Shown here: piece after piece, positions 3,276 to 44,129 of the stretch
Position numbering within the stretch: the first letter of the stretch is position 1
How the letters are laid out: each line of letters opens with the position of its first letter
Source: Tetraselmis striata
Lineage: Eukaryota; Chlorophyta; Chlorodendrophyceae; Chlorodendrales; Chlorodendraceae
DNA: 64,000 nucleotides
NCBI GenBank assembly: GCA_006384855.1
Contig: VCJN01001349.1
Span: forward strand, 51,213 to 115,212
Direction: 5' to 3'
Translations under genes and position numbers: made by a program
Notes under the pieces: model-generated
The model's input: the letters and a program-made list of their open reading frames with translations, nothing else
Databases searched by the model: none
What the model was told of the DNA's origin: nothing

Positions 3276-3779
3276 TGTGGGACCCAGGGTACTTCGGTAC
3301 CCTGAATCCGCTTTTTCTCTCTGTGAAATCCGCATTTTTCCAGTGAACAGGTGGCTGCCGTACATGTGCCTAATTTGGACCGTATGGCAAAAGTACGACA
3401 CCCAGTTGTTACCAAAGCATGGCACCTAGGCATCTTTGCGAGTTGCCCTTCTTAGACAGAGAGGTGTCGGTCCTAATTGACACCTAGCCGGCTGGTATAA
3501 ATTGCCAGCCTCGGCTCCTTGTAATTCAATCAACTGCTCTTCCCAGAAATGTTCCGACGCACCCATTCTCTCGTGACAGTGCCACTCAGCCATCACCTCG
3601 GCGACAGCGACTACCTTTCGTCCATCGCCCACGGCTCACAGCAGCCCTTTGCCTTTCCAGCTTGCACCTTGCTTGCTGGCACTCGACGTGATTCGACGCG
3701 TGTACGCCCACTCTCGCCCACTCTCCTCCCATCAGTGACAGTGCCACTCAGCCATCACTTCAATAATCTCCCTCCGACA
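3276..3779 (+). repeat. Copia-1 5' LTR
   Basis: It begins TGTGGGACCC and ends CTCCGACA. The 3' LTR matches it almost base for base, and Copia-2 has a matching LTR at 43642-44129. The close similarity of the two Copia-1 LTRs suggests a fairly recent insertion. Confidence 0.93.
3496..3502 (+). promoter_or_regulatory. TATA box in the 5' LTR
   Basis: TATAAAT lies about two thirds of the way into the LTR and is followed within 35 bases by TTGTAATTCA, a plausible initiation region. The motif is kept in the Copia-2 LTR (minus strand near 43925) but is CATAAAT in the Copia-1 3' LTR. Confidence 0.55.
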
Positions 3780-3958
3780 GGTTTTTGGGCCCTCTCCTTT
3801 GGCACGACGTCTTGACCCATGCCAGAGGCTTCAACCTACGTGTATCTCGACCCTCGACACCTTTCGACGATCGACGGCGCCGTGCGACGAGTTTTTCTTC
3901 CCACCCGCCCTCCCCTACAGTTATACATCCTCTAGCACAAGTGCGCCATCCCTTCGCA

Positions 3959-6475
3959 ATGTCTACCAGCATCAACACCGGCATGATGAACACCCCCCTG
4001 GCCAATCTGGCTCGGCAGAGTGCGATCAAGACCGACCCTGGCGACGCCCCGCCACCGCCAGACTTCCGTGATGATACCAGTTATGACGACACCTTCAGCA
4101 TGGACGAGGCATCAGACAGTGACTCAGGTGACATCCAGCATATCAAGCCAGCTGCAGTGAAGCCAACACTCGACCTCAAGAACGTCCCCATCTGGGACAA
4201 CACCATCTCTACGCGGGACAACGCTCAAGCAATCAAGATCGCTCTCGGCGGCGCCGGCTACTTGGACACCACCAAGGGCAAAGGCACCCGTCAAGAACAA
4301 ATGATCCTTCTGGCAGCCTTGCGCCACGCAACGGCGCATTATCCCATGGCACTAACCATCGTCAACATCATCACCATGGACTCCGGGAAGTGTGGATATA
4401 CAGCATGGAAGACTCTTCTTACTGAGTTTCAGGGCTCAGCCATGGAGGCGCGCAAGCGTCAGCGTCAGCGCGTCCGCGCGTGCCCACCAAACCTCAATTC
4501 CTACAACCCCAGGGACCCGCAGCACACCACCAGGCCCATCGTCGTCTGCAGACGGTGTGGCCGTCCGGGCCATACTCACCATCAGTGTGTGGCCATGCGC
4601 CATGCCAACGGCCTGCGTATCCTGGATGACACCACACCGACCAGCACCATGACCAACCCTCGCTATGACCGCCATCAGCGCGAACCTGCGGAGCGTCGCG
4701 TCAACACCGGCTATGGCCACAACCCGCGCGACAACTACCACCATCAAGAGCCGCCAGGTCAGCATTTCTACAACAACAACCGCAACAATCAGGACAGGCT
4801 CCGGCGGCAGCAGCGTTGGACCAACCAGGGCGGCAACGACGGCAGGCGGCGTCATCAACAGCCAGTCGGCTTCGTCTCCCCGGCTGGACATCATCACCCG
4901 GGGCATCAGCAGGCTGACGACAACTCCAACCAGCGGCCGACGGGACACCAACATGCCTACCCGTTCGTGGGTGTGTCCCCATCGGCACAGCACCACAGCA
5001 GCATGCCCATCATGCTCACCTGCACCACCGCAGCCCCGGGAGGGGCGGCCGCCGGAGCACATGAGGGGGAGGGCGAGGACAGCGCGGAGGATGACTTACA
5101 TGACCCCTGCCACGTCCCCTGCTCCGACTCTTATGACGTCTTCGAGTCCCCGTTCTCACACTCATGGCGTGTCCACCACTCCCGCCCTCACCCCGACGCC
5201 TTCCCGATCTTCGATACCCCCGACATTCCCCCCCGCTGGAACATTTACTCCCATCCCTACCCCCTCGATCCCCCCATCCACCTATTCGACATCAATTCGC
5301 GACGTCCTCAACCCGTCCCCACCCCAGCCCCACCCCTATGCCTAACCTCACCCACATTCGTAGCCTCAGCGGCGTTGGCATCCCACATCCTTCATGCGGA
5401 GCAAGGCGCGCTGCGTGGCGACCCGCCACCAACGCTACCGCTCCTCACCGTTGCGCCAATCCTCCCGCGGCCAACCTCTCTGGTCATCGACCATCTCTTT
5501 TCGCCATGCCATGGCCCATCGGCATCTGAAGTAGAGGCTCAAGTAGAATACGGCTTCACCATCCACAAGATCACCGGCGCCGACCCGTCGCCCGAGGCTC
5601 GTACTATGTGGACACATCGCCTACGTGCCATCGGCGACAAGTACCCGGGCCGTCTGCCCCCATCAGCTTTTCAGGACTGTCATGCCAGGGCCCCCATGGA
5701 CGTCAACGACATCACCATCACGGCGCTAGAGGCCCTTCGCCCGGTCACCCTCATCGTGTCAGGCCCATCGTGTCAACCATGGTCACGTGCGGGTTCACGC
5801 CTTGGCTGGCATGACCATCGCTCTCGGGCCTTTGCTTCCGTCATCGGTTTCATCCGTTTCTACCTGACTACACAGCCCACACCGGTGCGCTACATCGTGG
5901 AGAATGTTCCAGGCGCGTTGGACTTCCCTGAGATACTCTCCTCACTTGGCACCGGCAACATCATGCGTGCGACCGCCTGCGGCTCGGCCGCTCACCGCGA
6001 CACCCTCCTGTGGGCCAATATCGCTTTGCAAACAGACGTCCAGACCTACATCGACAACATCAACGCCATCGAGCTCACCGACCCCGGCCCCTGCGCGTGG
6101 GACCTCTGTCTCTCCGAATTCCCCCATTTTACTCCGGTCGTGACAACTGACTACTTTCCGAAGTTCGTCGACCGCCCCGGCTCATACGCTTTTCGCATGC
6201 AAACCAACGTTCAGCCGGGCACTGGCATGGTCTACGAACATGATGGCCCATGGTCCTGCGCAGACAACGGCAGAATGTGCGAACCCTGTGCAGCTCTAAG
6301 CGCTCGCGCCATGGGCTTTACCTTGGATGATCTGCCCACATCTCACCTTTCCGAGGCGACACTGCGCAAACTTCTCGGCGGTGTCATCGACCTCAACGTC
6401 ATGCGCAACTACACCAAGGCTGTCTCGGGCGCCGCCCCTGCCCCAGTCGTCATCAATGTCTGCCACACGTCATAG
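3959..6475 (+). CDS. Gag fused to a C5-cytosine DNA methyltransferase
   Basis: One open frame of 838 codons; the ATG at 3959 is chosen because MSTSI-type starts align in both copia copies. Order: acidic N-terminus, copia-type Gag helices, CCHC zinc knuckle (CRRCGRPGHTHHQC, near 4550), His/Pro/Asn-rich linker, then methyltransferase from about 5480. Methyltransferase motifs visible: a motif I-like LFSPCHGPS; motif IV PSCQPWS with the catalytic Cys codon at 5771; motif VI YIVENVPG with Glu at 5900; a motif VIII-like GSAAHRD; and a terminal LLGGVIDLNV block resembling motif X. In known families this fold transfers methyl from S-adenosylmethionine to C5 of cytosine in DNA. The product may methylate element or host DNA, or cDNA in the particle; this is inference. 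Compared with Copia-2, Gag has an internal deletion after codons for TEFQGSA. No protease is seen between zinc knuckle and methyltransferase. The subfamily (Dcm-, DNMT1-, DNMT3- or DRM-like) is unresolved. Confidence 0.88.
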   Translation: MSTSINTGMMNTPLANLARQSAIKTDPGDAPPPPDFRDDTSYDDTFSMDEASDSDSGDIQHIKPAAVKPTLDLKNVPIWDNTISTRDNAQAIKIALGGAGYLDTTKGKGTRQEQMILLAALRHATAHYPMALTIVNIITMDSGKCGYTAWKTLLTEFQGSAMEARKRQRQRVRACPPNLNSYNPRDPQHTTRPIVVCRRCGRPGHTHHQCVAMRHANGLRILDDTTPTSTMTNPRYDRHQREPAERRVNTGYGHNPRDNYHHQEPPGQHFYNNNRNNQDRLRRQQRWTNQGGNDGRRRHQQPVGFVSPAGHHHPGHQQADDNSNQRPTGHQHAYPFVGVSPSAQHHSSMPIMLTCTTAAPGGAAAGAHEGEGEDSAEDDLHDPCHVPCSDSYDVFESPFSHSWRVHHSRPHPDAFPIFDTPDIPPRWNIYSHPYPLDPPIHLFDINSRRPQPVPTPAPPLCLTSPTFVASAALASHILHAEQGALRGDPPPTLPLLTVAPILPRPTSLVIDHLFSPCHGPSASEVEAQVEYGFTIHKITGADPSPEARTMWTHRLRAIGDKYPGRLPPSAFQDCHARAPMDVNDITITALEALRPVTLIVSGPSCQPWSRAGSRLGWHDHRSRAFASVIGFIRFYLTTQPTPVRYIVENVPGALDFPEILSSLGTGNIMRATACGSAAHRDTLLWANIALQTDVQTYIDNINAIELTDPGPCAWDLCLSEFPHFTPVVTTDYFPKFVDRPGSYAFRMQTNVQPGTGMVYEHDGPWSCADNGRMCEPCAALSARAMGFTLDDLPTSHLSEATLRKLLGGVIDLNVMRNYTKAVSGAAPAPVVINVCHTS

Positions 6476-6478
6476 CAA

Positions 6479-7066
6479 TTGGCGCGATATATCACCATGC
6501 GCACCATGCATGGACGAGGCCGTCCGCGCCATCCATCAGCTTCATGCGGCAGTGCTCGGCATGGGTCACACCGTTCAACGCATACGTGCCGATCGCAGCG
6601 CAGTCTATACCGGCTCTCCTTTGCGTCAAGCATGTGCCGACCTCAACATCGCGCTGGAGTTTACCGCGTCCCACTCTCATCATCAGGCAGGCCTGGCGGA
6701 GCGCTCTTTCCGCACTATCGGTGAGTGTGCCCAAGCCATGCTCCTCCACGCCGGCCTCGACCGCACCTTTTGGGATTGGGCGTATCTTCACGCCGTCTAT
6801 ATCTCTGCAACCGCCAGTGGAGCTCGTCCGCCAACGCCATACCTTACACGCTGATGACCGGTCGCAAGCCCGACCTCGCCAACCTGCATGTTTTCGGCTG
6901 CGTGGCCCGGGTCAACATACCTGTGACTATGCGGGCAGCCAAGGGCAAAATGACACCTAAATCTTGGCCGGGCATCTATGTTGGCCACCATGAGGACTCA
7001 GCCAGCTACCGCATCTACAACCCTAGCTACCAGGCGCGAAACGGTGACACGCGATGTCATCTTTGA
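6479..7066 (+). pseudogene. Copia-1 integrase remnant
   Basis: The frame shifts directly after the methyltransferase stop. It then reads the C-terminal part of a copia integrase: RADRSAVYT where the DNG motif with the second catalytic Asp is expected, and HHQAGLAERSFRTI around the catalytic Glu. FWDWAYLHAVYI and, after a frameshift near 6840, FGCVARV with PKSWPGIYVGHH complete the usual copia integrase tail. The HHCC zinc finger and first catalytic Asp are missing. The methyltransferase therefore sits where protease and the integrase N-terminus normally lie. Not functional as read. Confidence 0.82.
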
Positions 7067-7429
7067 CGAGGTGACACGACCCTTCTCCAGCACACCAGCA
7101 CTCTCTATGCCTGTCTTCCAGTTTCCCGACGATGACCACCTGCTGGACGAGCCGCAGCCCTTGGACAAGGAGGAGGGGCCCCAAGCACCGCCACCCATGC
7201 CACCATCAACGGCGCTTGCCTCAGCGCAGGGGGGTGGGGGGCACCTCCGCATCAAGACAAGCAATTTTCTTCAGCGTCATCAAGAGGGGGACGCCACAGC
7301 ACTACCAACTCCTCACTCCAGTGAATCGGCGCACATTTCTTCCCCTTATGTCGACCTCGGCGACTACCACCCCACGCTAGTGGCATCCGCCATCGCGGAG
7401 GTTGTGCGCCCCTACCCTGCGCAAATGGC

Positions 7430-8330
7430 CCCCCTCGCCCTACCAGCACCCACTGTCCGCGTGTCCAAGGCGCCGCGCAACTACAAGGAGGCCATCTCCA
7501 GCAATCACTTCGATGATTGGAAACAGTCCATGGACCGAGATATCGCCTCTATCGCCAAGATGGAGACCTTAGTTTTGATCAGCATCCCTGAGCGTCGACA
7601 TGACAACCCATCAGCAATCGTCATACATACGGCGTGGGCCTTCGCGGGAAAAGGACGGCAACCTCATCAAGCGCAAGGCCATAGTGGTCGTCCGCGGCGA
7701 TCAACTTATTGCCGGCGAGAACTATGATGACACCAAGACCTATGCCCCAGTCGTCAGCTTCATCGCCTTGCGCACCACTATTGCTCTCGCAGTTCAACTC
7801 GACTGGGAGCTGTACCAGTTCGACGTCACCTGTGCTTTCCTCAACGCTGACCTCGATGAAGATGTCTACGTCTACCCCCCCCCTCCCCCCCGGCTACGGC
7901 CGCAAGGACCAGGCTTGAAAACTCGTTAAGGCACTCTATGGCCTGCCGCAGGCGCCCAAGGCATGGTTCCTGCGCTTTTCTTCCTTTCTCCGTGACTTCG
8001 GCTTCGTCAGCTCCGAGTGCGATCCAGGCGTATGGACGCTGCTCGCAGTCGATGGATCCCTACTGGCCATCCTATGCGTCTAGGTCGATGACATCATGCC
8101 GGCTACCTCCCCATCGTCCGATATCCAAGAGCGTTTTCAGACTTCTCTCTTCGCTACGTTTAATGCGACCACTGACGGCCTATGCACCTGGCTCCTTGGG
8201 ATGGCCATTGATTGCAAGCCGGGAGGTGTAATCCACCTCCATCAGGAGAAATACATCAACGACATCCTGACTACCTTCAACATGACGGCGTGCACGCCTC
8301 GCCGCCTGCCTTGCACGCCGGATACCAATT
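7430..8330 (+). pseudogene. Copia-1 reverse transcriptase, frameshifted
   Basis: Copia RT blocks in order: NYKEAI and W near 7480-7525, KAIVVVRGDQLIAGENY, TYAPVVSFIALRT, FDVTCAFLNADLDEDVYVYP (first catalytic Asp), then after a frameshift LYGLPQAPKAWF. The YVDD motif reads as stop-VDD: a TAG at 8081-8083 replaces the Tyr codon. At least three frameshifts are present, one beside a C run at 7877-7890. The sequence is unmistakably RT but dead. Confidence 0.88.
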
Positions 8331-8333
8331 TTC

Positions 8334-9050
8334 ATGACCCTACAGGCACGCACCAAACTCTTTCCCTATCCCAATCTTGTTGGCAGCCTTACCTGGTTGG
8401 CTGTCGCATCACGCCCGGACATTGCGTTCGTGGTCGGCCGACTGCGCGCCTACATGGCGTCCCCCACCGAGCGTCACTGGCATATCGCCGTATCGGTGCT
8501 GCGCTACCTCAAGGGCACCCCCAGCCATGGCCTCATTTTCCGGAAGCAACTAAACAACGAGGCGCCTGACTTCCTCTTCTTTGTGGACGCTGATTGGGCA
8601 ACCTTCATGCCCAAATACCGCTCCACTACCGGCTATCTTGCCCTGGTGCATGGTACCCCAGTCGCCTACCGCGCGCAAGTTCAGAAGAGCGTGGCCATGT
8701 CTACTGCCGAGTCGGAGTTCGTGGCGCTCTGCATGGCCTGCAACTGCATGGCCTTTATTCACGTTCTTCTGCGCCTGCTCAACCACCCTACCACTGACCC
8801 GGTACGGGTATGCGAGGACAATCAAGCGTGCATCGTTCAGGTGAAGCATGGTACGATTACAGGCGCGCAAAGCCACATTGACCTCAAGTTTCAGTGTGCA
8901 GCCCATCTCTACCAAGATGGAGTCATCGACATGCACTACACGCCTACCACAGACCAGCTCGCCGATTTCTTCACCAAGGCGCTACCGCTGACTACCTTTC
9001 TTCATTTCCGTGCTTACCCTGATGGGATCATCCGAGGAGCCTTGCGTTGC
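8334..9050 (+). pseudogene. Copia-1 RT end and RNase H
   Basis: A long open stretch gives the copia RT connection (LVGSLTWLAVASRPDIAF, YLKGTPSHGL) and the RNase H domain. RNase H marks are DADWA near 8587, KYRSTTGYLALV, SVAMSTAESEFVAL and the closing HYTPTTDQLADFFTKAL. RNase H removes the RNA strand during reverse transcription. The domain looks intact, but upstream frameshifts cut it off from the rest of Pol. The frame continues into the 3' LTR. Confidence 0.9.
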
Positions 9051-9106
9051 GCCTCTGCCACCATCAGTCTTGCGCCCGCGGGATTCCACAGGATGAGGAG
9101 GGGTAG

Positions 9107-9612
9107 TGTTGGACCCAGCGTACCCCGGTACCCCGAATCCGCATTTTCTCTCTGTGAAATCCGCATTTTTCCAGTGAACAGGTGGCTGCCGTACATGTGC
9201 CTAATTTGGACCGTATGGCAGAAGTACGACACCCAGTTGTTACCAAAGCATGGCACCTAGGCATCTTTGCGAGTTGCCCTTCTTAGACATAGAGGTTTCC
9301 GTCCTAATTGACACCTAGCCGGCTGGCATAAATTGCCAGCCTCGGCTCCTTGTAATTCCGTCAACTGCTCTTCCCAGAAATGTTCCGACTCGCCCATTCT
9401 CTCTCGTGACAGTGCCACTCAGCCATCACCTCGGCGACAGCGACTACCTTTCGTCCATCGCCCACGGCTCACAGCAGCCCTTTGCCTTTCCAGCTTGCAC
9501 CTTGCTTGCTGGCACTTGACGTGATTCGACGCGTGTACGCCCACTCTCGCCGACTCTCCTCCCATCAGTGACAGTGCCACTCAGCCATCACTTCAATAAT
9601 CTCCCTCCGACA
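9107..9612 (+). repeat. Copia-1 3' LTR
   Basis: It begins TGTTGGACCC after the polypurine tract and ends CTCCGACA. It differs from the 5' LTR by scattered substitutions and a few-base indels. Confidence 0.93.
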
Positions 9613-9615
9613 GAG

Positions 9616-10270
9616 GGTTTGTAATTCACACCAGTATACAAGCACAAGGTTTCAGTACCGGTGGCCTCTGTGCCTGTCGTCGTAGTTGGTGGCTCGCTAT
9701 GGGGATATGTTATTACGGTACTGATGGTACCCAATACCTGCGGCCCCGGTACCTGTCGACGAAGTTGGCGGCTCGATGTGTGGATCTGTTAGTACGGTAC
9801 TGATGGTACCAGTACTGTATTGCTGTCAGAGGTCGTGGATTTGTTACCATGTAGTCATGTACTGGCTACCACACCGGTTCGCGTAAGTGCTCCGATATGA
9901 AGACCGTAAACGGGTCTCAAATCCTAGATGTGTAGCTGGCAACGCTTTTTGGCAACGTGGCACGCGCTACGTGCGTAGTATTAGCACGTGACCGCTCGCG
10001 CTCCTCCCTCATCGTCCCGCCGCCAGCTCCATCCTTGCCCGCGACACGCAAGACGAGGCACCTGAACGCCACCAAATGCCTACGTTAGCGCGTTGCTACC
10101 GCGGTATGTGCGTGATGGTGCCGGCCGGTGTGTCCGACTGGCATCGGTGGGGCGGGATGGGTTGGCGAGACGGGTGGTCACGTGGGAGCTGAGTTTTGAT
10201 CAAATGACGTTATATTTGAATGTATCAACCGGATACTAATCACTATTCGTACTCGTTTCGGTAGTTCCAT
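9616..10270. other. Intergenic repeats, no gene
   Basis: The left part resumes the GGTACC-rich repeat field interrupted by Copia-1. The part from about 9890 is GC-rich unique sequence with no frame I can support. Confidence 0.5.
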
Positions 10271-12080: not shown

Positions 12081-12085
12081 GTATT

Positions 12086-12243
12086 ACATAAGGGCTTTCA
12101 CAAAAGCGCACTACAAACAGAACTAACAACAGCTATGCAAGGTTGGTAGCAAAAGAGAGACATAAGCCTGAAACCAAGGTCGAGCAGGAGGACAGGGACC
12201 CAAGAACCAAGAAGGAGCCAGGGGAACCACGAAGTCACTTAGG
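12086..12243 (+). repeat. Dispersed 160-bp repeat, copy 2
   Basis: Inverted counterpart of 1816-1976, flanked on both sides by AGGTACTCAGGATTGT (near 12060 and 12240). That flanking direct repeat may mark insertion or local duplication. Confidence 0.75.
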
Positions 12244-14516: not shown

Positions 14517-15556
14517 TGGCATCGCTCCGGAGCGCCCGTCAAGCCGGTTACCCTCCCGGTGGTCCACCTGCCGAGCAATCTATGCGTCAAATTGTCGAGA
14601 AGAAGATGCTGGAAGCCCGTGTTATGGCGCCAACCCAGACATAGTTCACAACCTCGCCGACGTTCATGACTTCCCGGCATTCAAGGCCTGTCTGGAGAAT
14701 GTCGACAAGGAGATTTCCGACCGCAACAAGCTTTGGGTTCCTGAGATGGAGGCATGGCTCGGTCGCCAACTCAAGACCGATTCTATCGCGGCTCACACCC
14801 ACCAACTTGTGCTCAACAGCCATGAGCTCTACGTTCACATTGTCATGGTCTGCGAGATCCATGACTCACTTCGCCAACTATCAAGACTGGAAACAAGCTT
14901 TCTTCAAGGCCGCTTTTCCCAACGGCATTCAGACAATCGTCGGAAACTACACGCGTGACATCTGCATCAAGCCGAGCGACCCCAAGATGGCTACTTGCTG
15001 TGTCGACTTGCAGCGCAAGCTACAAGCTGCATTTGCTTTGCTGCATGCACCTTTCGCTGTGCCTGAGTACTTGCAAGTGCAAAGTATTTTGCAGGCGATT
15101 CCCAAGCACGAAAGGGCCGAGGTGCAAAAGATGGCTGACCACGCCAACGAGGCTGTCTCGACTCATGAAGTGCTTTTCAGATATCTCTCGGCTATCGACG
15201 AGGAGCACCGCCTCGCTGTCGAGACTGCCAAAAGGAGGCAAGCCAACATCAAAAACCAAAAGCGTCGCTTCGAGGAGTATTCAGGTCGTTGCCACATGCC
15301 GACCTCCACAAACCCGTGGTCACGCAACAACGGAGCATCAACCAGCTCTGCCACGATTCGTCCTACTGCTCACAACAGCTTGCCCAATCGCCCACCAATA
15401 AAGAGTCGCTTCTCTGGTGAGTGCGCCAAATGCGGCAAAAAAGGCCACTCAATTTATGAATGCCGCCATGCGTCTGAACATGACAAAGAACAATTCAAAG
15501 CCAAAGTGGCTGCTAGTAAGCTAGCCAAGCAAATCGACAAGATACGAGTTACATAA
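14517..15556 (+). pseudogene. Gypsy-1 Gag
   Basis: An ATG at 14517 opens a short frame (MASLRSARQ). Frameshifts near 14640 and 14870 then move the reading into a helical capsid-like region (FANYQDWKQAFFKAAFPNG and following). The end carries a CCHC zinc knuckle, CAKCGKKGHSIYEC, near 15420, and a basic tail. Gag packages element RNA into particles. Two frameshifts mean that no full Gag is made from this copy. Confidence 0.8.
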
Positions 15557-22280: not shown

Positions 22281-25200
22281 CGCTTAGCAGAGGAAAGCCT
22301 ACAAGCAATCGTCCAGGTGGACAAGAAAGTCAAGCTTGCGGAAGAGAACTTGGCGTGCGCGGCGCAGGTTCATGCCATGCCATTGGCATGTAGAAGTACT
22401 GTGTTGTCTGCTAACCGTTGTATCGTCTGGTCTTACGTACATAAAACTCGCTTTTGGTGATGGTCGTGTTAGTATGTATGTACACATGTGCTGACAAAGG
22501 AAAACGCCAAGATTGAGGAAGAGCTGATGCGTCTCAAACGGCAACTGAAAAATGCCAACGATGAAGCACCTACACACAAGAAGCGGTTGGACAAGCTGAA
22601 TGCGGCTATCACGCACAGATTCCCGACGTGAGCCTTGTTTCTTGCACTTTGATTGCTCTGCTATAGTACGTTGAACAAAGGTGTGCCGTAGTGCGGTGTG
22701 TTGAAGTGTCACTAACTGTACTTCTTCTTGTGAACTCATGTTCTCCGGAGACTCCAAATCCAAGTTGAAGGCGCCAGCGACAAGATCCGGTGGCTGCTGG
22801 AATCCAAGGAACATCTCAAGAGAGTGACTGCATCACACAATATCCTCGTTGTTCAGCGTATTATTTCAGATTATGGCAAGAGGTGGGATAAACCCTAAAA
22901 AACCCTAAAACCTAAAACCCTAAACCCTAAAACCCTAAAACCCTAAACCATACATGGAAAAGATGGAACACCGTTGTGCTGATCTCACAGCGCAATCAAA
23001 GCAACGGTACATTTGCTGGCTCAGAAGAAGGCCATGCCGAAGCAGGGCATTGCGGATGATGAGCGGCGCAATGTTAACCTTCGGCTTGAGGACATCCATA
23101 ACGTGCATTGCGCTGACTCTTGATGCCATGTAGCATGTGCGCATTGTGGCGGATGTGCCGTGAATTGCTGATGTTTCACGTTGCTCCGCAGCGCGTGTTG
23201 GCCCAACGGCGTGAGCTGTGTGTCGTGGTGGATCAGCTGACAGAGTCTGTGAGCTTGGTAACCTGACACGTGATGGCACCTGGCTGGCAGGGTATGTACA
23301 CAAAATTGCAAGTCCTGCGCTGCAGATGTGCCTCAGTGGAGCCCCTCAGAGTAATGCAGAACGCACGCATGGTCTGTGGGGTTCTGGGAGCGCCCCAAGT
23401 TGTTGGCAGCTATTAAAGAGCCTCGACAGAGCCAGCCCTGCCATTCCGCTTGGATAATCGGCAGATGCCGAAGTTAGCGTCAGGATCGCCCGCATGAGCG
23501 TCAGCTTACATCCAGTTATGGATGAGTTCTATGGCGCATATCTCGGAATCGCGACGATTTCATCGATGTGGACCGAGCGCATGCCCTCCAAGCTGAAGCT
23601 CCAGATTGGAGGCCTCATCTGCGTCAATTCATGGCGCGTCAACTTCTGTATGTACAAGTACAACAGCCTTTCCCGACCGCCATGCACTCAGTCGCGGTGG
23701 AAGGATGTCATGAAGGAGTTGCGGCAAGACGAGAACGCGAATGCAGCTGTGCAAAAGCTGCGGCAGTCTCACCCCTCACACACACAAAAAGCAAGACTGT
23801 CGTAAAAACACAGAGGCGACAAAGGGAGAAAGAAACAATTGTTACAACGTTGTCACCACCCGCCGCTACTTATGCGTATGGCTAGCTCGCAGCTAGGCAC
23901 CACCAAGCGGCACGGGCACTACTAAGCGCGTCACCGTGAAGAGTCATGCCTTGAAGTGTCGAACATGAGGTCGTCGCTTAGAGACCTCCGCACAAGTAGT
24001 TGACACATACATCAGTTTATACACAAGTAAACTACTGATGTTACAGAGGCAGGTGCATAATACATATATGTCCGCTACGGGTACGCACATGCGTATCATC
24101 CCGTAACTACTACTGAACAGTGTACCGGTACCAGTAGGACTCATCTCATGATTCATCATCCACCAGTACTCGTATTGTGGCGCGTGACACACGCGCGCAC
24201 ACACTGTTGTACGATACAGCAGGTACTCGTACATGAATGATGCTACGATCATGCAGTACCCGTACAGAGTATGCCATAATTGTCACACTACATCTCTCCC
24301 CCCTTGACAGTGTGAAATAGCATTCCATGATAGGCAGTTTAATTTGCAGTCGGCACACGTGCCGGATATTTATGCATACGCTTCACAAATTCAGGTGACT
24401 TTATAAAGTCCAACCATTTGGGAGTAGCCATAAAATCCTGCAATGCTATTGTCCTTTTAACATCAAACAAACGATGCCAAACAGGGGCAATAGACTCATC
24501 CGCAAAGTGAACAAGAAATTGCAACTGAGTACCACGTAAACCGGGCATGAAACCGATCTTAACGCTGGTAATCTTGTCAATCTCATACTTATCATCAGAA
24601 TCGTCACCAGTACCAACAAGAAGAGGTACATGCGGGCGCAACGGCGCAGTGGGACATAGTCTCAAGTTATTAACATGAAATACTGGGTGCAACTTAACAC
24701 AAGCAGGTAATTTCAGTCGATAATTATGACCGCCAGCTTTCTCTACAATAGAAAATGGGCCAAGCTGCTTGTCCATCAGCTTTTTGCAAGGCTGACCTTT
24801 GACCTTAAGCAGACGGGTATCCACAGATACTCTATCTCCAACATTGAAGATAGGAGGATTGCGTTGTTGCCACTAGGATGAACAGTCAATTCATCTTTAT
24901 GGACAGCCAACGCTGACTGAACCAACTGCTGGACATCCTTCATATCTTGGATACGTTGCTGAGCATCACGGGAGAATGCTATTGTTGGTCTCGTACCAAA
25001 CAATACATCCGGAGGCGTTTCAGGATTGAAACCATACATAACCTGAAATGGTGCATGCTCAATGCCAAGTGCTTTGTTGGAATTATACGCAAATTTAATC
25101 AATGGTAACTGGCTTACCTGGTTTGAACCATCGAAACAACAAAACGCTCGAGCCAACTCACTGACAATGGCATTTACGCGTTCAGTCAAACCATCTGTTT

Positions 25201-28200
25201 CAGGATGTTGGCCACTAGACATGTTCAATTTAGTGCCAAGTCTTCTCCACAGAGTTTGCCAGAATGCAGACAAGAATCGTGGATCTCTGTCAGAGACAAT
25301 CACACGAGGTATTCCATGCAACCTGAATACTTCCTTCAGAAATAATCCAGTTGCCTGCCCACTTGTCACGTTGACTGTGGTTGGAATAAAATGTGCTTGC
25401 CGGGACAGATGGCAACACACAACCAACATAGTATGAAGTAACTTGACAGTTGAATCAGCGATGCGTCGATTTTTCAGAAATTTTAAAAGAACGGGTTCTA
25501 TATCATTGGCCTACAGTTCCATCAATTGCATTGCCAGCGCTTTGAAGTACCAGCAGCGAGCGTTTGCATTGCCAGCGCTTTGAAGTACCAGAGTTTTTTT
25601 CCATTACCAGCAGCGAGTAGCGAGTACCAGTACTAGCAGCGAGCGTTCGCATCGCCAGCGCTTTGACGTACCAGAATTTTTTCCATTACCAACAGCGAGT
25701 AGCGAGTACCAGTACTCATAGCCTCCCAACCGTGAGATCGTAATCGGACGGCTGTGTAATTAAGGACCGTGGGCGGGCGGGTGGGTGGGTGGATTATAGC
25801 ACTTAGTAGTACATGCCAGTAGATAAGCGCTTTAGTCATGCACTATAGGCCCGATCCGCTGCACTAAACGGGTACCCCTACGGCAATAAAGCTCACCGCC
25901 GAAAAATCGACGCTTCGCTGGATTATAACCATTCTTCTCTGGTAACTCGGTTATAAAATCCAAACCAACCGTATGCCATGGACGTGGCGATACTACTGGT
26001 AAGGGTTGTGTTGGTGCAGGTAGCTGCGGACGTGCCCGAACACGCCAGCACACCGAACATTGCTCACAATAGGTTTCCACGTCATGACGTATGCGTGTCC
26101 ACCATAAACTGTCCAAGGCACGTGCCAAGGCGCTTGCATAAGCACGGTGACCAAAATAATCATGTAGCTCATACAATATCTTATTGATGATGTCACGATC
26201 GGTTGGTATGCAAAGACGTCCATGTCTCAAAAAATAACTATCGTGCTCTACCACATGACCGGACTGCTTCCACCCCCCCCCCCCCCCATAAGGAGTAGAA
26301 CGCGTCCTCTGCATATCCAGCATTAATAAGGCGGAGAATATTGTCATCACGGTTAAGTGACGACGCACTTAGAGCCGACAATACCGCAGTACATGGGCGA
26401 TGTTTACTCGCGAATGATTCAGCCGCGTCCGGCACATCCCCGGTCCAATATAAGCCACCGAAACCAATCGGCTTAAAATCCGGTCTACGTGACAACGGAT
26501 CGGCTTCATTCCACTTGCCCTTTCGGTATGCAAGGGATATGGACCCAACAAACGGCTACAAGTCGCGTACATAGCGCACTTGTCGCCGGTTCAACCTTTT
26601 TGCCGGTCGCCTGAGCAGATGACGTATGGTGTCATGATCTGAGACAACAAGGAATCGACGGCACCCTTCAAGGTAACAACGCCAGTGCTTACTTGATTCA
26701 TAGACAGCCAAAGCTTCCAAATCATAAGCACTGTAGGTATTACCACGCTCAGCTGCATTCAGCTTTCGCCCCCAGTAACTAACTGGTTGAGGACCTCCTC
26801 CTTGGTCCTGCAGGAGAACTGCAGCAAGCCCTACGTTAGACGCATCTGTCGCTACGGTGAACGTCGCATCCGCCCCCATGGAAGGAATGGAAAGACACGG
26901 AGCGGAAATCAGTCGCAGACGAAGGGTCTCAAAGGCTTCGTGACACGCCGGTGACCAGTCAACATGAACTGGTTTAGACTTACGCAATAAGTCAGTCAAT
27001 GGTGCAGTTAAATCACTGAAATGATGAATAACCTTAGAGTAGAAGTTGCAGAATTGTACAAAACTTCTGACTTCACTCTGAGTTTTAGGGACAAGCCAAT
27101 CCCTAACCGCAGCCACTTTGGCCTCAGAAACGGACAATTTACCCTCAGCGACGGTATACCCCAAATAATCCATAGATTGCATACCAAAGAAACATTTCTT
27201 TAACTGCAACGTCAGATTATATTCATTCAGTTTCTCAAAAACTAAACGAAGGTGCTTCTTGAATAAGCATATATTCAATATGCTTATTTGTTGCAACATA
27301 TTAACGAATATATGAATATTCACATACGTGAATATTCACATATTCACATATTATGTGAATATGTGAATACATTCATATATCATCCAGATATACCACCACA
27401 AAGTCACGTAAATATGGTCTCAAGATGTCATTTATCATGCGCTGGACAGTGGCTGGGCATTTTGCACAAACCAAATGGCATTGCAGTCCACTTCCATAGA
27501 CCATCAGGTGTCCGAAACGCTGTCTTGTGGATGTCCTCCTCTGCAATGGCAACCTGCCAATAACCTGATGCTAAATCCAGATGGGTGTAGCAACGGGCAT
27601 TGCGGAGGGAATCCAACGTTTCATCAATTCGTGGCAAAGGATACATATCCTTTCGAGTGACCTCGCTCAGCCCACGAAAATCGACACACAACCGAAGGGA
27701 TCCATCTGCCCTCTTAACAAAAAGGATAGGCGAACCAAACTCAGATTGACTAGGACGAACAACTCCAGCGGCAATTGCATCTTTGAGTTGGCGATCCAAT
27801 TCAGCACGTTCAGCGGGAGACAAACGATTCAGTCTTTGGCGTTTCATCCTGTCAGTTAACTCAATTCTGTGATCCCATGGCCGATGAACATGCGGCCTGT
27901 GGACTGGACGCATAATTTCAGGAAACTCGTCATACAACAAATGACGAATAGCATCCTTTTGCTCTAGTGTCATAGCATTGTGTAAATGCAGGTCAGGATC
28001 ATCTTTTATAACCGACATTTCAACGACATAGAATTCACCCCAAGAATTCTGCTTAGATGCACGAGCAGTTTTGCGCATCAACTTTTGTACCTTAGTGGAA
28101 GTAATCATGCTACATGCAAGAGTACGACCCACTATTACAACAGGTACATGGGTTCCATCCATTAAAGTCATGATACGTTCAGTACCATACTTAATGGTAA

Positions 28201-31200
28201 CTTGCGCTTCATCAAGCCAAGTTAGACCCAACACCATGTCGGAGACTTTGAGCTCACGCAGTATATAAAATACTCGATTCTCAAATACATGTCCTCCAAC
28301 AGACAAAGACACAACTGTTGTATGGCAACATGAGACACGTTGACCATTAGCCAAACGAACAGGTGTTTTAGCTATCAACTTTGGTATCTGCAAGTTGTTT
28401 CTACGCACAAAGTCATCAGATATAAAATCCAAAGATGCCGCATTATCAACTAGTGCATCCACAACGGCATCATCGTTAATAGTCACATTAACTTTTAACA
28501 ATGGCCTGGGGTCATCCCAACGAGTCAAAGAAGCAATCTGATGCAAACTTTGCCTTTGCTTACTCCAAAATGATGGATCAGACACATTGACAGCATCACA
28601 TTCATTTATAGACTCAGATGCACGTTCACCAATACCAACGCTAGAATCTGCAACTTTTGCAGAGTCCACGTTAAAACTCACATTTGGACTTGTGACAGTT
28701 TTAGGTACAAAGTCATCAGGAAAGGCACAATTAGCATCAACTAGCCAAATGTTAACCCCATACTTTTGGGGCTTGACATCTTCCTGGACTGTGGCATTTT
28801 TATTAGACCACCTGGTGAACAAAGGTATCTTTGCCGGGAATTACTGCAGCAGTTTCCAGTGCTTTGTCAAAGCATTGAATCTATCTAATGCAGGCAGTAC
28901 AAACACTCCTACAGTATGTTCTTTGGCCCTATTACGGCATTCCTCAGAAATACTATGTAATAGACTCAGTCATATGCCATGGAGGGTGAATGAACACACG
29001 TTCATTTGACAAGTCGCGCGATAGTATCGAATCTTGTTCTGAACCGAACGGTAAGTTTTGATGGGTATTTAGACCCTCATTATCCGCACACCCCTCCAGC
29101 GTAAACTGGAACATCTTATGTAAGGGTTCAAAGACTCTATCGACCAGTCGCCACTCGGCACTGACTGCAGTCGACCTAGGCATACGGCGCGCCTTATAGC
29201 CTTTCCGCGACGATGAGCCGAAACTTTCCGAGTACCCGTTACATGGGCATCTTGTTCTGAACAGAACGGTAAGTTTCGATGGGTATGTATACTCTCATTA
29301 TCCGCACACCCCTCCAGCGTAAACTGGAACATCTTATGTAAGGGATCAAAGACTCTATCGACCAGTCGCCACTCGGCACTGACTGCAGTCGACCTAGGCA
29401 TATGGCGCGCCTTATAGCCTTTACGCGACGAGGAGCCGAAACTTTCCGAGTACCCGTTACATCAGAGATTACGACATCGTCACTCAAATATGCACTCGTC
29501 ACAGGTATATCGCCATTCAGACGTGCATTAGTCAATAATGCAGATATCTCAGGTGCCAATGACATATCGGCATCAGTAACTTCACAATCACGCGATGCGA
29601 CAGTTACAGGACAGCATGATGTAACACAAACATAATTTACATCCCTATCCACTGAGCTGTTATCAATAGAATGCGGGCACCCCTATTTCATCTTAGGGCA
29701 GTCCCTCAGAAGGTGAGCCTCTCCACATTTAAAGCATGTTTTGGCAGCCATGTGCTTAGCATACTTCTCTGGCTCATGCATTTTGACATGATTAAGATAA
29801 TCAATAATCTTCATGTCATGTGCCATAGAGATTTTACCATTGACCTTCTTGTTGCAAGATTTCAGTCTTTTGGCATTGGTATTGCGGCGTCCATTGCTTG
29901 CGCCTGGTGCAGCATCATCACCATGACTACGCTTGTTCGTGTTGATGATCTTGGACTTCTTCTTGGAGTGCTGCCCACCATTGCCATTACCAGTAGGATG
30001 TCCATTTTCAACTGGCTTAGCCGCATTACCAAGTGGCTTGTTACTACCAACCATTGCCGTTGCATATTGTTGCAGCTCATTGAGGGTCAATGCATGTCCT
30101 GCACGCTTTTGTTCAGTCACAAACTCATGAGCCATCTCCTTAAGTTTAGTATGACTCAGTGCAGATGCAAACTTCAGGGCTAGGAACTCATCAGGGAAGG
30201 TTAGTCTTGTCCTTGCCAGGATGTCATTGAAGGCATGCACAAACTCTCGTTGTGATTCCCTAACTGCCTTGACAAACTCCACAACGTTAATCGGGCGAAG
30301 CTAAGACGACTTCAAGTCGAATCCTTGCCACAAACGTTGAAAGTTGCCACTCAATATTTGCACAGCATATGCAAGTCCGGCAGTAGTCGTCGACTTCAGT
30401 CCCACAGTACCGAGCTGCTCCGGTAGTTCAATAAGCCATACATCCAGCTTAAGAACATCTTCACATTTCTGTTTAGACTGAGCTTGAGCTGATTTTCGCT
30501 GAGACTCAGTCAAATGAGCATTAGGAGTCTCGTACCATGGTACATCAATAATAACCATCTTTCTCATGTCAGTCGCCATCGGATCCACGACTAGATAACG
30601 ATTCACGGGGTCCCAAATAGGTCATTCCCCAGTATCATACCTAAATGCAGACTGCTGAGAGAGCTATGGGTACGAACGATTCATCAAGAAGCCATTTAGT
30701 ACAGACTTATAAATGGCCGCCCAGGAATCACTCACAACAGTATGAATCATGAATGGAGGGTACCACACAGTAGTCGGAACAAGCTTGCCACGACTGTTCA
30801 CTGCAATGCTGACCGAGTACGAATCATCAGACTATGGGTCCAGGGTGATACTCTCAGGAAAGGTACGCTCGACGCCAATCAGAGCATGATCGTCATCAAC
30901 ATCTAATTCCTCACCAGCAACAGCTACTGGTGCAACTAAATGCGACATGACTAGAGCGTGCGACCTGTCTAGCGTGCGCATTTCACTGGCTATCTGCTAG
31001 GATGATAGCCTAGATGCATATAAGAAACATTTCATGTCATCCATGATGAGAACGTCAAACAGTTCTAAGTCGTCCTCAGAGACAAGCAGACCAGTTTCCT
31101 CACGGAGTTTCCGCACAGCCGTGCCGCGCACAGTACTGTCAGATGTTGTCGACTTTCCGACTGGTGTGAAAAGAGTCGATCTAACATTTGGCTCAGTCGT

Positions 31201-32524: not shown

Positions 32525-33882
32525 GGTAGGCGTGTAGTGCATGCAGATGATGCCGTCTTGGTAGAGTTGGGCCGCATACTGAAACTGGAGGTCAATGTGG
32601 CGTTGCGCGCTTGTAATCATACCATGTTGCACCTGAACGATGCATGCGTGGTTGTCCCCGCATACTCGCACCGGGGGCAGCAGTAGTGGGGTGGAATAAC
32701 CGCCAGACATGTGCAGACCTCGCAGAGCGCCACGAACTCCGCCGCGGCAGTAGACATGGCCACGCTGCCTCCGAACCTGCGCACGGTAGGTGACTGCAGG
32801 GTCATGAAAGTTGGTATTCAGCGTGCAGAGCAGGCGGCGAGGCTTGCTCTCCGTCATGTGAAAGGTAGTCAGAATGTCATTGATGCAGGTTTCCCGATGA
32901 AGATGGAGCACGCCGCCCGATTCGGAGCCGATGAAGCCGAAGTCACGTAGAAAGGAAGAAAAGCGCAGAAACCATGCCTTGGGTGCCTGCGGCAGGTCGT
33001 AGAGTGCCTCAACGGGATTCCAAGCCCGGTTTTTGCGGCCGCAACCGAGGGGGAGGTAGTCATAGGCATCTTCATTTCGGTCGGCGTTGAGGAAAGAACA
33101 GGTGACGTCGAACTGGTAGAGCTCCTAGGTGAGTTGAACCGTGATAGCAATGGTGGTGCGCAAGGCGACGAAGTGAACGACTGGGGCATACGTCTTGGCG
33201 TCATTATAGGCCTCGCGCTTGATGATGTTGCCATTCTCGTGCTGCGCCGCGAAGGCCCACGCCGTCTGTTGGAAGACCGCTGACTCGTTGTTGCGTCGAA
33301 GCTCAAGGACGTTGACCCAGACGAAAAGTGCCATCGTGGTGATAGAGTTTATCTCATGGTTCATGGACTTCTTCCAGTCATCGGGGCGAGTGCTGGGGAT
33401 ATCCTCCTTATAGTTGCGCGGCGCCGTGGACACGCGGACAGTGGATGCGGTAGGGCGAGGGTTGTCCGCCGCGCTGAGTGGGGGCGCACAACCACCGCGA
33501 CCGCGTATGCCACCATTGTTGGGTGGTTATCGCTGAGGTCGACGTACTGGGAAGTCAGTTGTGCCTGTTTGCTGGTGTGAGGAGCCGACAATGCCGTGGC
33601 GTCCCCCTCCTGATGGTGCGGAGGGTGCTGCTCGTTGTGATGTGGAGGTGGGGGCCCCTCATGCGCCGAAGCAAGCGCCGCTGATGGCAGCATGGGCGGC
33701 TGTGCGTGGGGCCCCTCCTGCTGGCTCGAGGGTTGAAACTCGTCCATCAAGTAGTTAGCGTTGGAGAACTGAAAGGCCGGCATAGAGAAAGGCAGGGTCT
33801 TGCGCCCGGTAGCCGGGTTGTAGATGCGGCAGCCACTGAAGGGGCCGGGGTCGGCGAGCTTGATAGCGGCGACGTTGTTGAC
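32525..33882 (-). pseudogene. Copia-2 remnants after the insertion: RT and RNase H pieces
   Basis: The minus strand resumes the methyltransferase for about a dozen codons (VNNVAAIKLADPGP). It then jumps by deletion to the post-integrase linker (CRIYNPATGRK) and continues to RT fragments (NYKEDI, TYAPVVHFVALRTT). After another deletion come RNase H fragments (ACIVQVQHGMI, HIDLQFQYAAQLYQDG). The last copia residues are MHYTPT. Confidence 0.85.
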
Positions 33883-34469
33883 GCACACTGTGAGATTCAG
33901 ATGTGACGCAAGTGTGCCCTACTTGTGACGAACGACGACATACGGGGACGATACGGGACGGACGAGGGACGTGGATTTCATACCGAGTAGCGACGACTAT
34001 CGCGCGCGACCTGTAAAGTACTATATGAATTTATCGTTTCGATAATTTCATCAAATTGATATGCCCACGCGGGCTCGCCTGTCGCGCGCCGACGCGGAGT
34101 ACCCGGGCTAAGTACATGCGGCTGCACATCGCTGCACATCGCTGCACATCGCTGACCCCGCGGTGTGCGGCGATGTGCGGCACGACGGGCGGAGGTGTGG
34201 GCGGATGTAGGTGGTACGGTAGGTGGTAGGCGGTAGGTGGTGTTCGTAGGTGCGCGTTTTAATGCAGCCGCCCTAACTGCTGATGATTGTGTAACGCCCC
34301 AGCACGCGCATGAAGTACGGGGTCGCCTGGCGGTCACCGCCGCTCACCGCTGAACCAAGCGCGGACAGCCGCGCACTCGCATTTGTGCTCCCTGCCGGTG
34401 GTGGGCTACATCCACCCCAACTCTCAACCCCCCCCCCCCCCCCCCCCGCGCGCGCGCGCGGCAGCAGGC

Positions 34470-35922: not shown

Positions 35923-35931
35923 AGGACTCGA

Positions 35932-36014
35932 TACCCAGCGCGGCGCCAAGGCGCGGCGGCCGGGGCAGCGCGGCGCCAAGGCGCGGCGGCCGGGGCAGCG
36001 CGGCGCCAAGGCGA
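35932..36014 (+). repeat. 30-bp tandem repeat
   Basis: GCGCGGCGCCAAGGCGCGGC followed by GGCCGGGGCA is repeated about two and a half times after the third exon of the transposon gene. Confidence 0.9.
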
Positions 36015-36186
36015 GTGGGATGGGCGGGGCAGCGGTTGCTACCGAGTGAGGCGTAGCATCGTTTGCAGTAGCAACGCAGCCTTTCCGGTTGCATAGTGTG
36101 ACACCGCCTGGATGTAACCCAGCAGTACGCGCAAAGTGCAAGTGTTACACGTCCGTGTGCCCCACCCAATGACATTGCGCCCGACC

Positions 36187-40236: not shown

Positions 40237-40345
40237 AGGTGAAACGATTGTGGCTTGTTGTGGGCGTCTGGGCACAGGGGGCGTCCCGACGCCAAGGTAA
40301 GGAAGCTCATGGCGGCGTCGTCGACGGCACAGCCTCCCGGGGTCA

Positions 40346-40552: not shown

Positions 40553-40559
40553 CCCCCGC

Positions 40560-41235: not shown

Positions 41236-41261
41236 TGTCACATCTGAATCTCACAGTGGCA

Positions 41262-43450
41262 GTTCCGGATGTCTTGCGGCTGAGCGATAATGGTCCACAG
41301 GAGGGTGTCGCGGTGGGCTACCGAGCCGCAAGAGGCCGCGCGCACGATGTTGCATGCGCCAAGTGAGGAGAGTACTTCAGGTAAGGCCAGCACGTCTGGA
41401 AAATTCTGCACAATATAGCGCACTGGTGTGGGCTGAGAAGACAGGTAAAGGCGGGGGAAACCGATGACGGAGGCGAAGGCACGAGAGCGATGGTCCTGCC
41501 AGTCAAGGCGTGAGCCCGTGCGTGACCATGGTTGACACGGTGGACTTGACACGACGAGGGTGAACGAGCGCAGCCGCTCTAGCTCCGTGATGGTGATGTC
41601 GTTGATGTTCATGGGGTTCCCGTCATGAAAACCCTGAAATGCCGATGGAGGCAGGCGGCCCGGGTACTTGTTGCTGATGACCGGTAGGTGATGTGGCCAC
41701 ATAGTGCGAGCCTCCGTTGATGGGTCGGCGCCGATGAACGCGTGGATGGATAAGCCGTATTCCACCACAGCCTCCACCTCAAATGCCGATGGGCCATGAC
41801 ATGGCGAGAAGAGATATTCGATTACCAAAGAAGAGCTTGGCATCTGGAGGAGCGGGCAGCGGTGAGTATCGGGAGCGGCGGTGGCAAGTCTCCACATAGG
41901 GCGCCCTGCCCCGTATGAAGGTCGTGGGCCGCCAGTGCCGCTGATGTTGGTAATGCGGATGAAGCGAGGCATAGAGGTTGAATTGGGGTGGGAATGGGTT
42001 GAGAGCGGAGGTGGCGAGCACGCCATGGGTGTGAGAACGGGAACTTGAAGTTGTCGTCAGAGTTGGAGTAGGGGACGTGCCAGGATTCATGTAATTCATC
42101 GTCTTCGCCGTCCTCGCCCTCCCCCTCCTGCGCTCCGGTGGCTGCCCCTCCTGGGGCGGTGGTGGTGCAGGTGAGCATGACGGGCAGGCCGCTGTGGTGT
42201 GGTGCCAGCGAGGACACACCCATTAACGGGTAGGCCTCCTGGCATCCTGTCGGCTGCTGATCGGAGTCGTTGTTGGCCGGGTGATGTCCGTGGTGGTGAT
42301 GTCCGGCCGGGGAGACGAAGCCGAATGGCTGGTGATGGCGCTGCAGGTCGTCGTTGCCGCTCTGGTTGGGCCAAGGCTGCTGCCGCTGGGGCCCGTTTTG
42401 ATGGTTGTAGTCGTTGCGCATGTTGTGGGTATAGTTGTCGTTGACGTGACACTCCGCGGGCGCACGTTGACAGTGACCATAGCTAGGGTTGTTTACGGTG
42501 CTGAGTGGGTCGGTGTCACCCAGGAGACGCAGGCCGTTGGCATGGCGCCTGGCCATACACTGATGATGAGTATGGCCTGGACGGTCACACCTGATGTAGA
42601 CGATGTTGGGCCTTGTGGCATGTAGTTGGTCCCTAGGGTCGCAGGAGTCGAGGGTTGGCGTGCGTACACCGGCGCGCTGCTGACGTTGACGCGTGCGCGC
42701 CTCCATGTTCTGTCCGGCACTTATGATGGTTGCCAGCCTCTTGATGACATTGGTTGCCGAGATGGTGGCGTCGAGAATGTGATCGTATGCTGGGTGAAGT
42801 CATGGGATGAGGTAGTTGATGGCCACGTACTCGAAAGTCCACTGGCCATGTGCCTTGCGCAACAAATTCCAGCGGTTCCGGTAGCGGCGAACGTACACCT
42901 GAACCGGCTCATTCGGGAGTTGGCCTGCTGTGATTTCTTCCTCCAAGCGCCTGCGCTCCTCTATGGCCGAGCCCTAGGGTTAAGTAAATAGGGCCGTCCA
43001 GGTCGCATGTCCACACTTCTTGGAGTCCATGATGATGATGTCGACGATGGCCAGTGCCATGGGATAATTCGCTGTCGCGTGGCGCAGGACTGCCAGAAGA
43101 ATGAGTTGCTCCTGGTGGGTGCCTTTGCCCTTGGTGGTGTCCAGGTACCCGGCGCTGCTGAGGGAGATCTTGACGGCCTGAGCATTATCACGCGTAGAGA
43201 TGTTCTGGTCCCATACGGGGACCGTCGCGAGGTCGAGTGTCGGCTTTACTGCAGACGGCTTGATCCACTGGATGTCATTGGAGCCACTGTCTGACGCACC
43301 GTGCAGGCTGAAAGCGCCTTATGAACTGGTATCACTGTCACTAAAGTCAGGCGGCGGTAGATCGCTGCTAGGGTCCTTCTTGACCGCACTCCTCCCAGCT
43401 AGATTAGGCAGAGGAGTGTTCATCATGCCGGTGGTGATGCTGGTAGACAT
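41262..43450 (-). pseudogene. Copia-2 Gag and DNA methyltransferase
   Basis: The ATG at 43450 (MSTSITTGMM) matches the Copia-1 start. This copy keeps a Gag segment that Copia-1 has lost (PNEPVQVYVRRYRNRWNLL and following, about 42790-42930). The zinc knuckle has lost its first Cys (IRCDRPGHTHHQC). The methyltransferase starts near 41850 and keeps LFSPCHGPSA, GADPS and motif IV as PPCQPWS (Cys codon at 41535-41537). The ENV motif has become QNF. By eye the domain is about two thirds to three quarters identical to Copia-1. Two frameshifts separate Gag from methyltransferase. It is interrupted at 41261 by the DNA transposon. Confidence 0.88.
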
Positions 43451-43641
43451 TGCGGAAGGATGGCGCACTTGTGCTGGAAGATGTGTGACTGTAGGGGTGG
43501 GCGGGTGGGAAGAAAAATATCGTCGCACGTCGCCGTCGACCGTCGAAAGCTGTCGAGGGTCGAGATACACACAGATTGAAGCCTCTGGCAAGCGTCGAGC
43601 ACGGGGCAAGACGTCGAACCAAAGGAGAGGGCCCAAAAACC

Positions 43642-44129
43642 TGTCGGAGGGAGATTGTCGAAGTGATGGCTGAGTGGCACTGTCATTGATGGGGGGAGAG
43701 TCGACGAGAGTCGCCGTGCACGCGTCGAATCACGTCGAGTGCCATCAAGCAAGATGCAAACTGGGAAGGCAAAGGGCTGCTGTGAGCCGTGGGCGATGGA
43801 CGAAAGGTAGTCGCTGTCGCCGTGGTGATGGCTGAGTGGCACTGTCACGAGAGAGAATGGGTGAGTCGGAACACTTCTGGGAAGAGCAGTTGACTGAATT
43901 ACAAGGAGCCGAGGCTGGCAATTTATACCAGCCGGGTAGGTGTTGACTAGGGTAGACTTTGCACCATCAAAGAAGGCCATCTGGTCAGGGAGAGAAGTCC
44001 AAGTGCCGTACATTGGCACCATGTGGGTGTCTTACATCTTAGGCACATGTACGGCAGTAGCACTTCACAATGCGGATTTCGCAGAGAGAAAATGCGGATT
44101 TAGGGTACCGGGGTACCCTGGGTCCAACA
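43642..44129 (-). repeat. Copia-2 5' LTR
   Basis: On the minus strand it begins TGTTGGACCC and ends CTCCGACA. It keeps TATAAAT. No partner LTR remains at the truncated left end. Confidence 0.9.

Follow-up and report, generated by a model that had tools for sequence, protein, structure and literature searches.

Why would retrotransposons carry a host-type silencing enzyme and methylate DNA? The question is raised by a 64,000-nucleotide stretch (the window) of contig VCJN01001349.1 of Tetraselmis striata, a core chlorophyte, in which one 838-codon frame was proposed, in a preliminary description made from the sequence alone, to fuse Gag to a cytosine C5-methyltransferase (MTase) inside a Ty1/copia element. 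The description had mentioned retrotransposon-borne MTases from other algae, and such enzymes have indeed been reported; in the available text of PMC5890265, however, the elements concerned are LINE, DIRS and Gypsy elements, not copia, and the Symbiodinium copia elements described there are without a DNMT. The same text describes purifying selection on the Gypsy and DIRS DNMTs and CG methylation by one from DIRS, and the role proposed in its discussion is methylation of the element's own cDNA.

A methyltransferase frame inside a defective copia element

We found that the frame is enclosed by a 6337-bp LTR element (window 3276-9612; Table 1), hereafter copy 1. As had been proposed, a single open reading frame contains both a CCHC knuckle and a C5-MTase domain, the latter matching PF00145 above the cut-off (E=4e-7), and the surrounding element is a genuine Ty1/copia retrotransposon, as seen from its LTRs and its PF25597 and PF07727 matches. 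Three traits of this superfamily are present: paired LTRs, an RVT_2-type reverse transcriptase (RT), and an integrase ahead of RT (in the order rve-SH3-RVT_2 in the related proteins P0005 and P0017, with a partial integrase in copy 1).

Table 1. Features of the two copies of the family in the window, with strand and basis of assignment
Feature	Position	Strand	Basis
5' LTR (TG...CA)	3276..3779	+	direct-repeat partner of 3' LTR; ends read from sequence
838-codon Gag-MTase frame (P0001)	3959..6475	+	single open reading frame
Gag, N-terminal part	3959..4480	+	tblastn, 86% identity to P0002 residues 1-175
CCHC zinc knuckle (aa 195-212)	4541..4594	+	PF13917 E=0.011, below cut-off; C-x2-C-x4-H-x4-C visible
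C5-MTase domain (aa 507-821)	5477..6421	+	retrotransposon-MTase profile; PF00145 over aa 579-655; model and fold matches
Motif I position, SPCHGPSA replacing the glycine-rich SAM loop	5501..5524	+	row comparison
Catalytic cysteine codon, motif IV (C605)	5771..5773	+	sequence
Catalytic glutamate codon, motif VI (E648)	5900..5902	+	sequence
Junction; P0002 residues 805-1065 (protease and N-terminal integrase) missing	6473..6512	+	tblastn
Integrase core, C-terminal part	6513..6871	+	tblastn to P0002; rve E=0.073 only
SH3_retrovirus domain	6857..7027	+	PF25597 E=3e-15
Copia reverse transcriptase (RVT_2), split over frames	7645..8350	+	PF07727 E=2e-16 and 5e-4; tblastn to P0017
RT end and RNase H region	8295..8822	+	tblastn to P0017 residues 1234-1417, 78% identity; no Pfam match
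Purine-rich tract preceding 3' LTR	9090..9106	+	sequence
3' LTR (TG...CA)	9107..9612	+	repeat pair; tblastn; sequence
Second copy (subfamily B), Gag and MTase	41262..44129	-	5' LTR ~43642-44129; interrupted at 41258
Second copy, remainder: MTase remnant, SH3 region, RT/RNase H remnants	32525..33885	-	tblastn and sequence

Copy 1 is an old, defective member of a multi-copy Ty1/copia family. Its LTRs differ by 17 substitutions over ~505 sites (8 transitions and 9 transversions, with no CpG excess among the differences evident by eye), indicating that the insertion was not recent. A 5-bp target-site duplication was not found beside the LTRs of this one old copy, where CAGAG faces GAGGG. By tblastn, a Gag segment corresponding to P0002 residues 176-245 is missing after position 4480; the RT has an in-frame stop, and pol is spread over several frames. 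Because the protease and half of the integrase are missing, copy 1 cannot move on its own proteins or function alone. Since the Gag segment, protease and half integrase have been lost, the supposed Gag-MTase fusion is the front part of a truncated polyprotein: Gag and MTase do share a frame, as described, but that frame derives from a Gag-MTase-protease-integrase-RT polyprotein that is deleted here.

Two further repeats were seen around the element. Inverted repeats of 159 bp, 92% complementary and 10.1 kb apart (1812-1970 and 12084-12242), flank it, and it may sit within another terminal-inverted-repeat element. Tandem repeats of 79 bp with CAGTACC/GGTACC motifs occupy 9653-9810, right after the 3' LTR, with a related copy at 2775-2853.

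Fuller relatives in Tetraselmis

Relatives were sought in three protein searches, each of which scored only ~8000 candidates sharing most words, so that absence from their results proves little. In the first, 36 of 38 matches were named jgi/Tetstr1, which we take to be the JGI code of Tetraselmis striata, as were 22 of 38 in a further one; across both there were 53 distinct Tetstr1 proteins, many of which have the MTase domain at the same place. P0002 (1203 aa) holds Gag, a whole MTase, the protease motif DSGASSH, gag_pre-integrs and rve in one frame. P0005 and P0017 add SH3 and RVT_2 (2e-47 in P0017) to this arrangement and have gapped MTases, that of P0017 being without the stretch from ENV to HRD and that of P0005 without motif I. 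P0003 has a whole MTase and the protease motif with partial Gag, integrase and RT. The motif DSGASSH occurs in this setting in 14 of the 99 proteins examined, P0002 among them, and is absent from copy 1; no Pfam protease match was obtained in the fuller relatives. In no single protein examined are Gag, MTase and pol all complete, these being gene models that may be mis-spliced.

Taken across these proteins, the fuller members of the family encode Gag, then the C5-MTase, then protease, integrase and RT. The published DNMT retrotransposons (PMC5890265) are repeated and have a C5-MTase that shares a frame with proteins of the retroelement, and both features were found here. The preliminary description had allowed that the domain might lie in an unrelated insertion present only in this copy. 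The defects of copy 1 and its broken pol would suit such a chance insertion, or a recent pseudogene; the MTase, however, has a constant position across many Tetstr1 proteins and a second copy in the window, and P0002 joins it to Gag and pol in one frame, so that we regard the chance of this as negligible. Neither of the refuting outcomes named in the preliminary description was obtained, the profile match being significant and the domain occurring in many copies. The identity of the Tetraselmis copia-MTase family, and the facts given here about its members, we consider very probable.

The second copy, on the opposite strand, belongs to what we call subfamily B. No 3' LTR was found for it, and in its MTase ENV is changed to QNF. 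Subfamily B has the MTase remnant joined to the SH3 region, the integrase being gone; this junction was seen in 8 of the 99 proteins examined, indicating that the deleted form has been repeated. Motif VI glutamate is changed in the subfamily B rows, and the cysteine is changed too in seven of them.

A 7373-bp element (window 33886-41258) is inserted within the MTase of the second copy. Its terminal inverted repeats (CACTGTGAG...) are 22 bp long and perfect, and TGC is repeated at both flanks; by these features we presume it to be CACTA-like, and a Pfam search of two of its ORFs gave no transposase match.

The copia methyltransferase and its kin in Gypsy elements

Outside Tetraselmis, the single-sequence search matched P0035 (E=1e-18, 30% over 78%) and P0038 (E=2e-14). 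A search from P0038 returned 29 proteins, itself included (P0035, P0038 and P0040-P0066), of which 21 are annotated with RT, RNase H or integrase domains of Gypsy type and none with RVT_2. Named sources include Closterium sp. NIES-54 (P0042, P0059), Haematococcus lacustris (P0060) and Mesvir1 (P0055), presumably Mesostigma viride. These Gypsy-MTase polyproteins resemble the copia family in carrying a homologous MTase module within an LTR-element polyprotein, and differ from it in their Gypsy pol, in a motif I that keeps its glycine, and in their domain orders, such as Gag-PR-MTase-RT-RH-INT (P0045) and RT-RH-MTase-INT-PHD (P0053).

The chromatin-reading PHD finger is listed in 10 of the 29 Gypsy-type proteins (P0041, P0046, P0047, P0049, P0050, P0053, P0054, P0056, P0062 and P0065), and follows the integrase in P0053 and P0050. 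On the minus strand of the window, at 24776-30282, lie broken remnants of Ty3/Gypsy type in which frames for protease, RT and RNase H were recognized; one frame runs from protease to RT with no MTase in it. A 296-aa frame at 14666-15556, with a CCHC knuckle match below the cut-off (E=5e-5), is perhaps another Gag.

Profiles of the copia and Gypsy MTases aligned over 282 columns with 33% identity (hhalign, E=2e-37). Against the PDB, the Gypsy profile matched DNMT3A/B (2.5e-23), then 4onj, labelled DNA methyltransferase (3e-11), with M.HhaI (2.4e-10), HaeIII (3e-9) and DNMT2 (1e-6) lower. The copia-only profile showed no preference for DNMT3 (HaeIII 1.3e-3 vs DNMT3B 2e-3); the nearest solved structures to the predicted model of the copia MTase were DNMT3A/B, favouring DNMT3 modestly. 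The catalytic domain of mammalian DNMT3A/B is thus nearest to both the Gypsy profile and the copia model, at an identity of ~15-20%; it differs in having PCN in motif IV, and the copia family is without chromatin-reading domains. PCN is a feature of the DNMT3 family, and was seen in the DNMT3A/B chains; it is absent from the rows compared, which read PCQ in copia and PCQ or ECQ in the Gypsy rows of alignment A4.

We built an MTase tree of 69 rows and 331 columns, with one DNMT3 row (DNMT3A) and without DNMT1, 2, 5 or 6 rows or an algal host DNMT3. It took in 10 of 54 Tetraselmis rows and 23 locus ORFs picked from the profile-matching ones; P0041 was dropped as too short, and the label 'gyp' is loose, taking in Gag-PR-MTase and metagenome frames without RT. 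The copia rows grouped as a single clade (100/100), whose stem is 1.92 changes per column long, and copia, Gypsy and DNMT3A stood opposite bacterial and phage MTases across a 100/99 branch. Gypsy and copia grouped apart from DNMT3A (94/92, not starred), in a tree whose bootstrap had not settled and whose DNMT3A and copia branches are long. By these profile and tree comparisons, the copia MTase is of the same family as the MTases that Ty3/Gypsy elements carry in green algae, streptophyte algae and metagenomes, and this shared family appears, among solved structures, nearest to DNMT3.

As drawn, copia is nested within Gypsy, weakly (35/86), and a Gypsy-only clade was not rejected (p-AU 0.379); the kinship is therefore supported, and the direction of transfer is not. 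An exchange of the module between LTR superfamilies is possible. The same p-AU value, from a tree without algal host DNMT3, leaves room for the module having been captured twice from DNMT3-like genes of a host or a virus, once by Gypsy and once by copia; the grouping of copia and Gypsy rows away from DNMT3A speaks against this, and we lean away from two captures while giving them serious weight. In the available text of PMC9998398, no DNMT3 is reported in green algae of MMETSP, which leaves Tetraselmis with no obvious host donor; DNMT5a and DNMT6 are reported there in Tetraselmis.

Viral and bacterial origins were considered and rejected. P0001 had no relative in viral contigs; a mixed profile (A1) led to 10 loci, with ORFs of at most 62 bits vs 240-480 for most retrotransposon rows; and among the 75 phage records that P0038 matched, the 15 listed have 27-28% identity and cover 19% of the query. 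The bacterial search gave 35 loci, of which the best, in a cyanobacterial MAG (L011), looks like algal contamination.

The contig of L011 carries an MTase frame close to P0035, 31% identical to the query and scoring 452 bits with the retrotransposon profile; it is probably an algal contaminant of the MAG.

Catalytic motifs and the question of activity

In a BLAST-based count, 19 of the 35 rows covering both sites, copy 1 included, keep both the catalytic cysteine and the glutamate; in the other 16, one or both are substituted (14 rows) or there is a gap (2 rows). The motif IV described earlier as PSCQPWS does contain the cysteine; the sequence around it is atypical, however, reading PSC whereas 34 of the 37 rows covering the site have P, and PSC is private to copy 1 among the rows compared. 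At motif I, FxG reads FSP, with proline at the glycine site in all 22 rows covering it, while this glycine is invariant in the six Gypsy rows of A4. A174-H175-R176 and W181 are mostly kept among the copia rows.

These substitutions raise the alternative of a pseudo-enzyme, in which the MTase fold would be kept and SAM binding lost, the domain extending Gag with a part for binding nucleic acid or for assembly; DNMT3L, an inactive partner, offers an analogy. The FSP that replaces FxG, with SPCHG around it, is conserved in the family, and SPCHGPSA is identical between copies 1 and 2; motif VIII is AHRDT in copia rows vs AHRxR in Gypsy rows; the copia stem is long; and subfamily B was amplified despite the loss of catalytic residues. 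All of this would fit a pseudo-enzyme. However, a long-dead domain should have lost cysteine and glutamate sooner, as subfamily B did, and the two persist together in more than half of the rows. We consider a pseudo-enzyme unlikely, though well worth weighing.

The ratio dN/dS between copies 1 and 2, two defective copies only, was 0.44 in the MTase (225 codons, Fisher p=2e-5), close to the N-terminal part of Gag (0.37) and lower than the linker (0.70), which would speak for an enzyme. We also considered CpG decay as a trace of methylation, and rejected it: CpG observed/expected was 0.93 in the element vs 0.92 in the window, and this lack of depletion gives no sign of long CG methylation.

Another alternative is that the domain methylates RNA, acting on element RNA or primer tRNA as DNMT2 acts on tRNA. 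The single-sequence matches of P0001 include Dnmt2 (6fdf, E=0.0075) beside HaeIII (0.0055), its PSCQPWSR resembles PSCQPFTR of the 6fdf chain, and RNA methylation is suggested for SymbioLINE DNMTs in the available text of PMC5890265. The resemblance, however, involves the PSC peculiar to copy 1, and profiles of the Gypsy relatives place DNMT2 far below DNMT3 (1e-6 vs 2.5e-23), which makes an RNA methylase very unlikely.

The earlier suggestion that the element in the window may methylate DNA found no support as stated: copy 1 lacks the proteins to move by itself, and the glycine of motif I has been lost across the family. The effects suggested there, milder host damage, marked copies or a counter to host silencing, are conjecture. 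For the fuller members, an active cDNA methylase is a plausible but tentative reading, which we hold with some doubt.

Discussion

The explanation that we favour, and consider fairly probable, is a copia-family Gag-MTase-pol polyprotein whose DNMT3-near module would methylate the cDNA of the element. Beyond the domain order, we infer the following steps. The MTase would be made within the Gag-Pol polyprotein and carried into the virus-like particle, its position between Gag and protease bringing it to where cDNA is made. The element protease would then free the domain, which could methylate cytosines in freshly made cDNA of the element, either ahead of integration or as it takes place. The module itself would have crossed LTR superfamilies, or have been taken twice from related DNMT3-like sources.

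Among the closest described systems is KnitGypsy-Dnmt3 of Klebsormidium nitens, which, in a comparison by description with the available text of PMC5890265, is likewise an LTR retrotransposon of a green-lineage alga with a DNMT3-related MTase in a coding frame; it differs in being Gypsy, not copia, and in carrying the MTase within its Pol frame. SymbioDIRS-Dnmt3 and SymbioLINE-Dnmt of Symbiodinium, described in the same text, are also retrotransposon-borne C5-MTases, but in DIRS and LINE elements of a dinoflagellate host. CG methylation by SymbioDIRS-Dnmt3 was demonstrated in yeast (PMC5890265).

A passing sentence in PMC12344493 (2025) states that some DNMT3 occur in 'LTR Copia and DIRS' elements. 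It cites the 2018 paper, which in its available text reports Gypsy, and the section that contains it names no element, host or structure; the wording 'LTR Copia' may reflect a slip, or else an observation not yet published. Tetraselmis has no occurrence in the main text of PMC12344493. Our literature search found no other published statement, in the text available to it, of DNMT3 in copia elements, and no description of a Tetraselmis copia DNMT element in full-text articles, a body that leaves most subscription journals outside. Of the other mobile elements with nucleic acid-modifying enzymes, those in the available text of PMC12477816 are Sola transposons with a different, N4C/N6A-type MTase, and those reported in PMC9289625 are orchid Gypsy elements with an m6A demethylase.

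A bolder reading would have a DNMT3-like cassette circulating between green-alga Gypsy and copia elements, the elements acting as carriers of de novo methylation in chlorophytes without a host DNMT3 and a new Tetraselmis cofactor loop replacing motif I; we regard this as distinctly unlikely. With a copia family carrying the module, the retrotransposons with a DNMT would extend to one more LTR superfamily and to a host among the core chlorophytes. An MTase module common to Gypsy and copia would suggest selection in the elements, not accident. Rows with the catalytic residues preserved and a repeated subfamily that lost them stand side by side in one genome, a natural comparison for the role of the domain.
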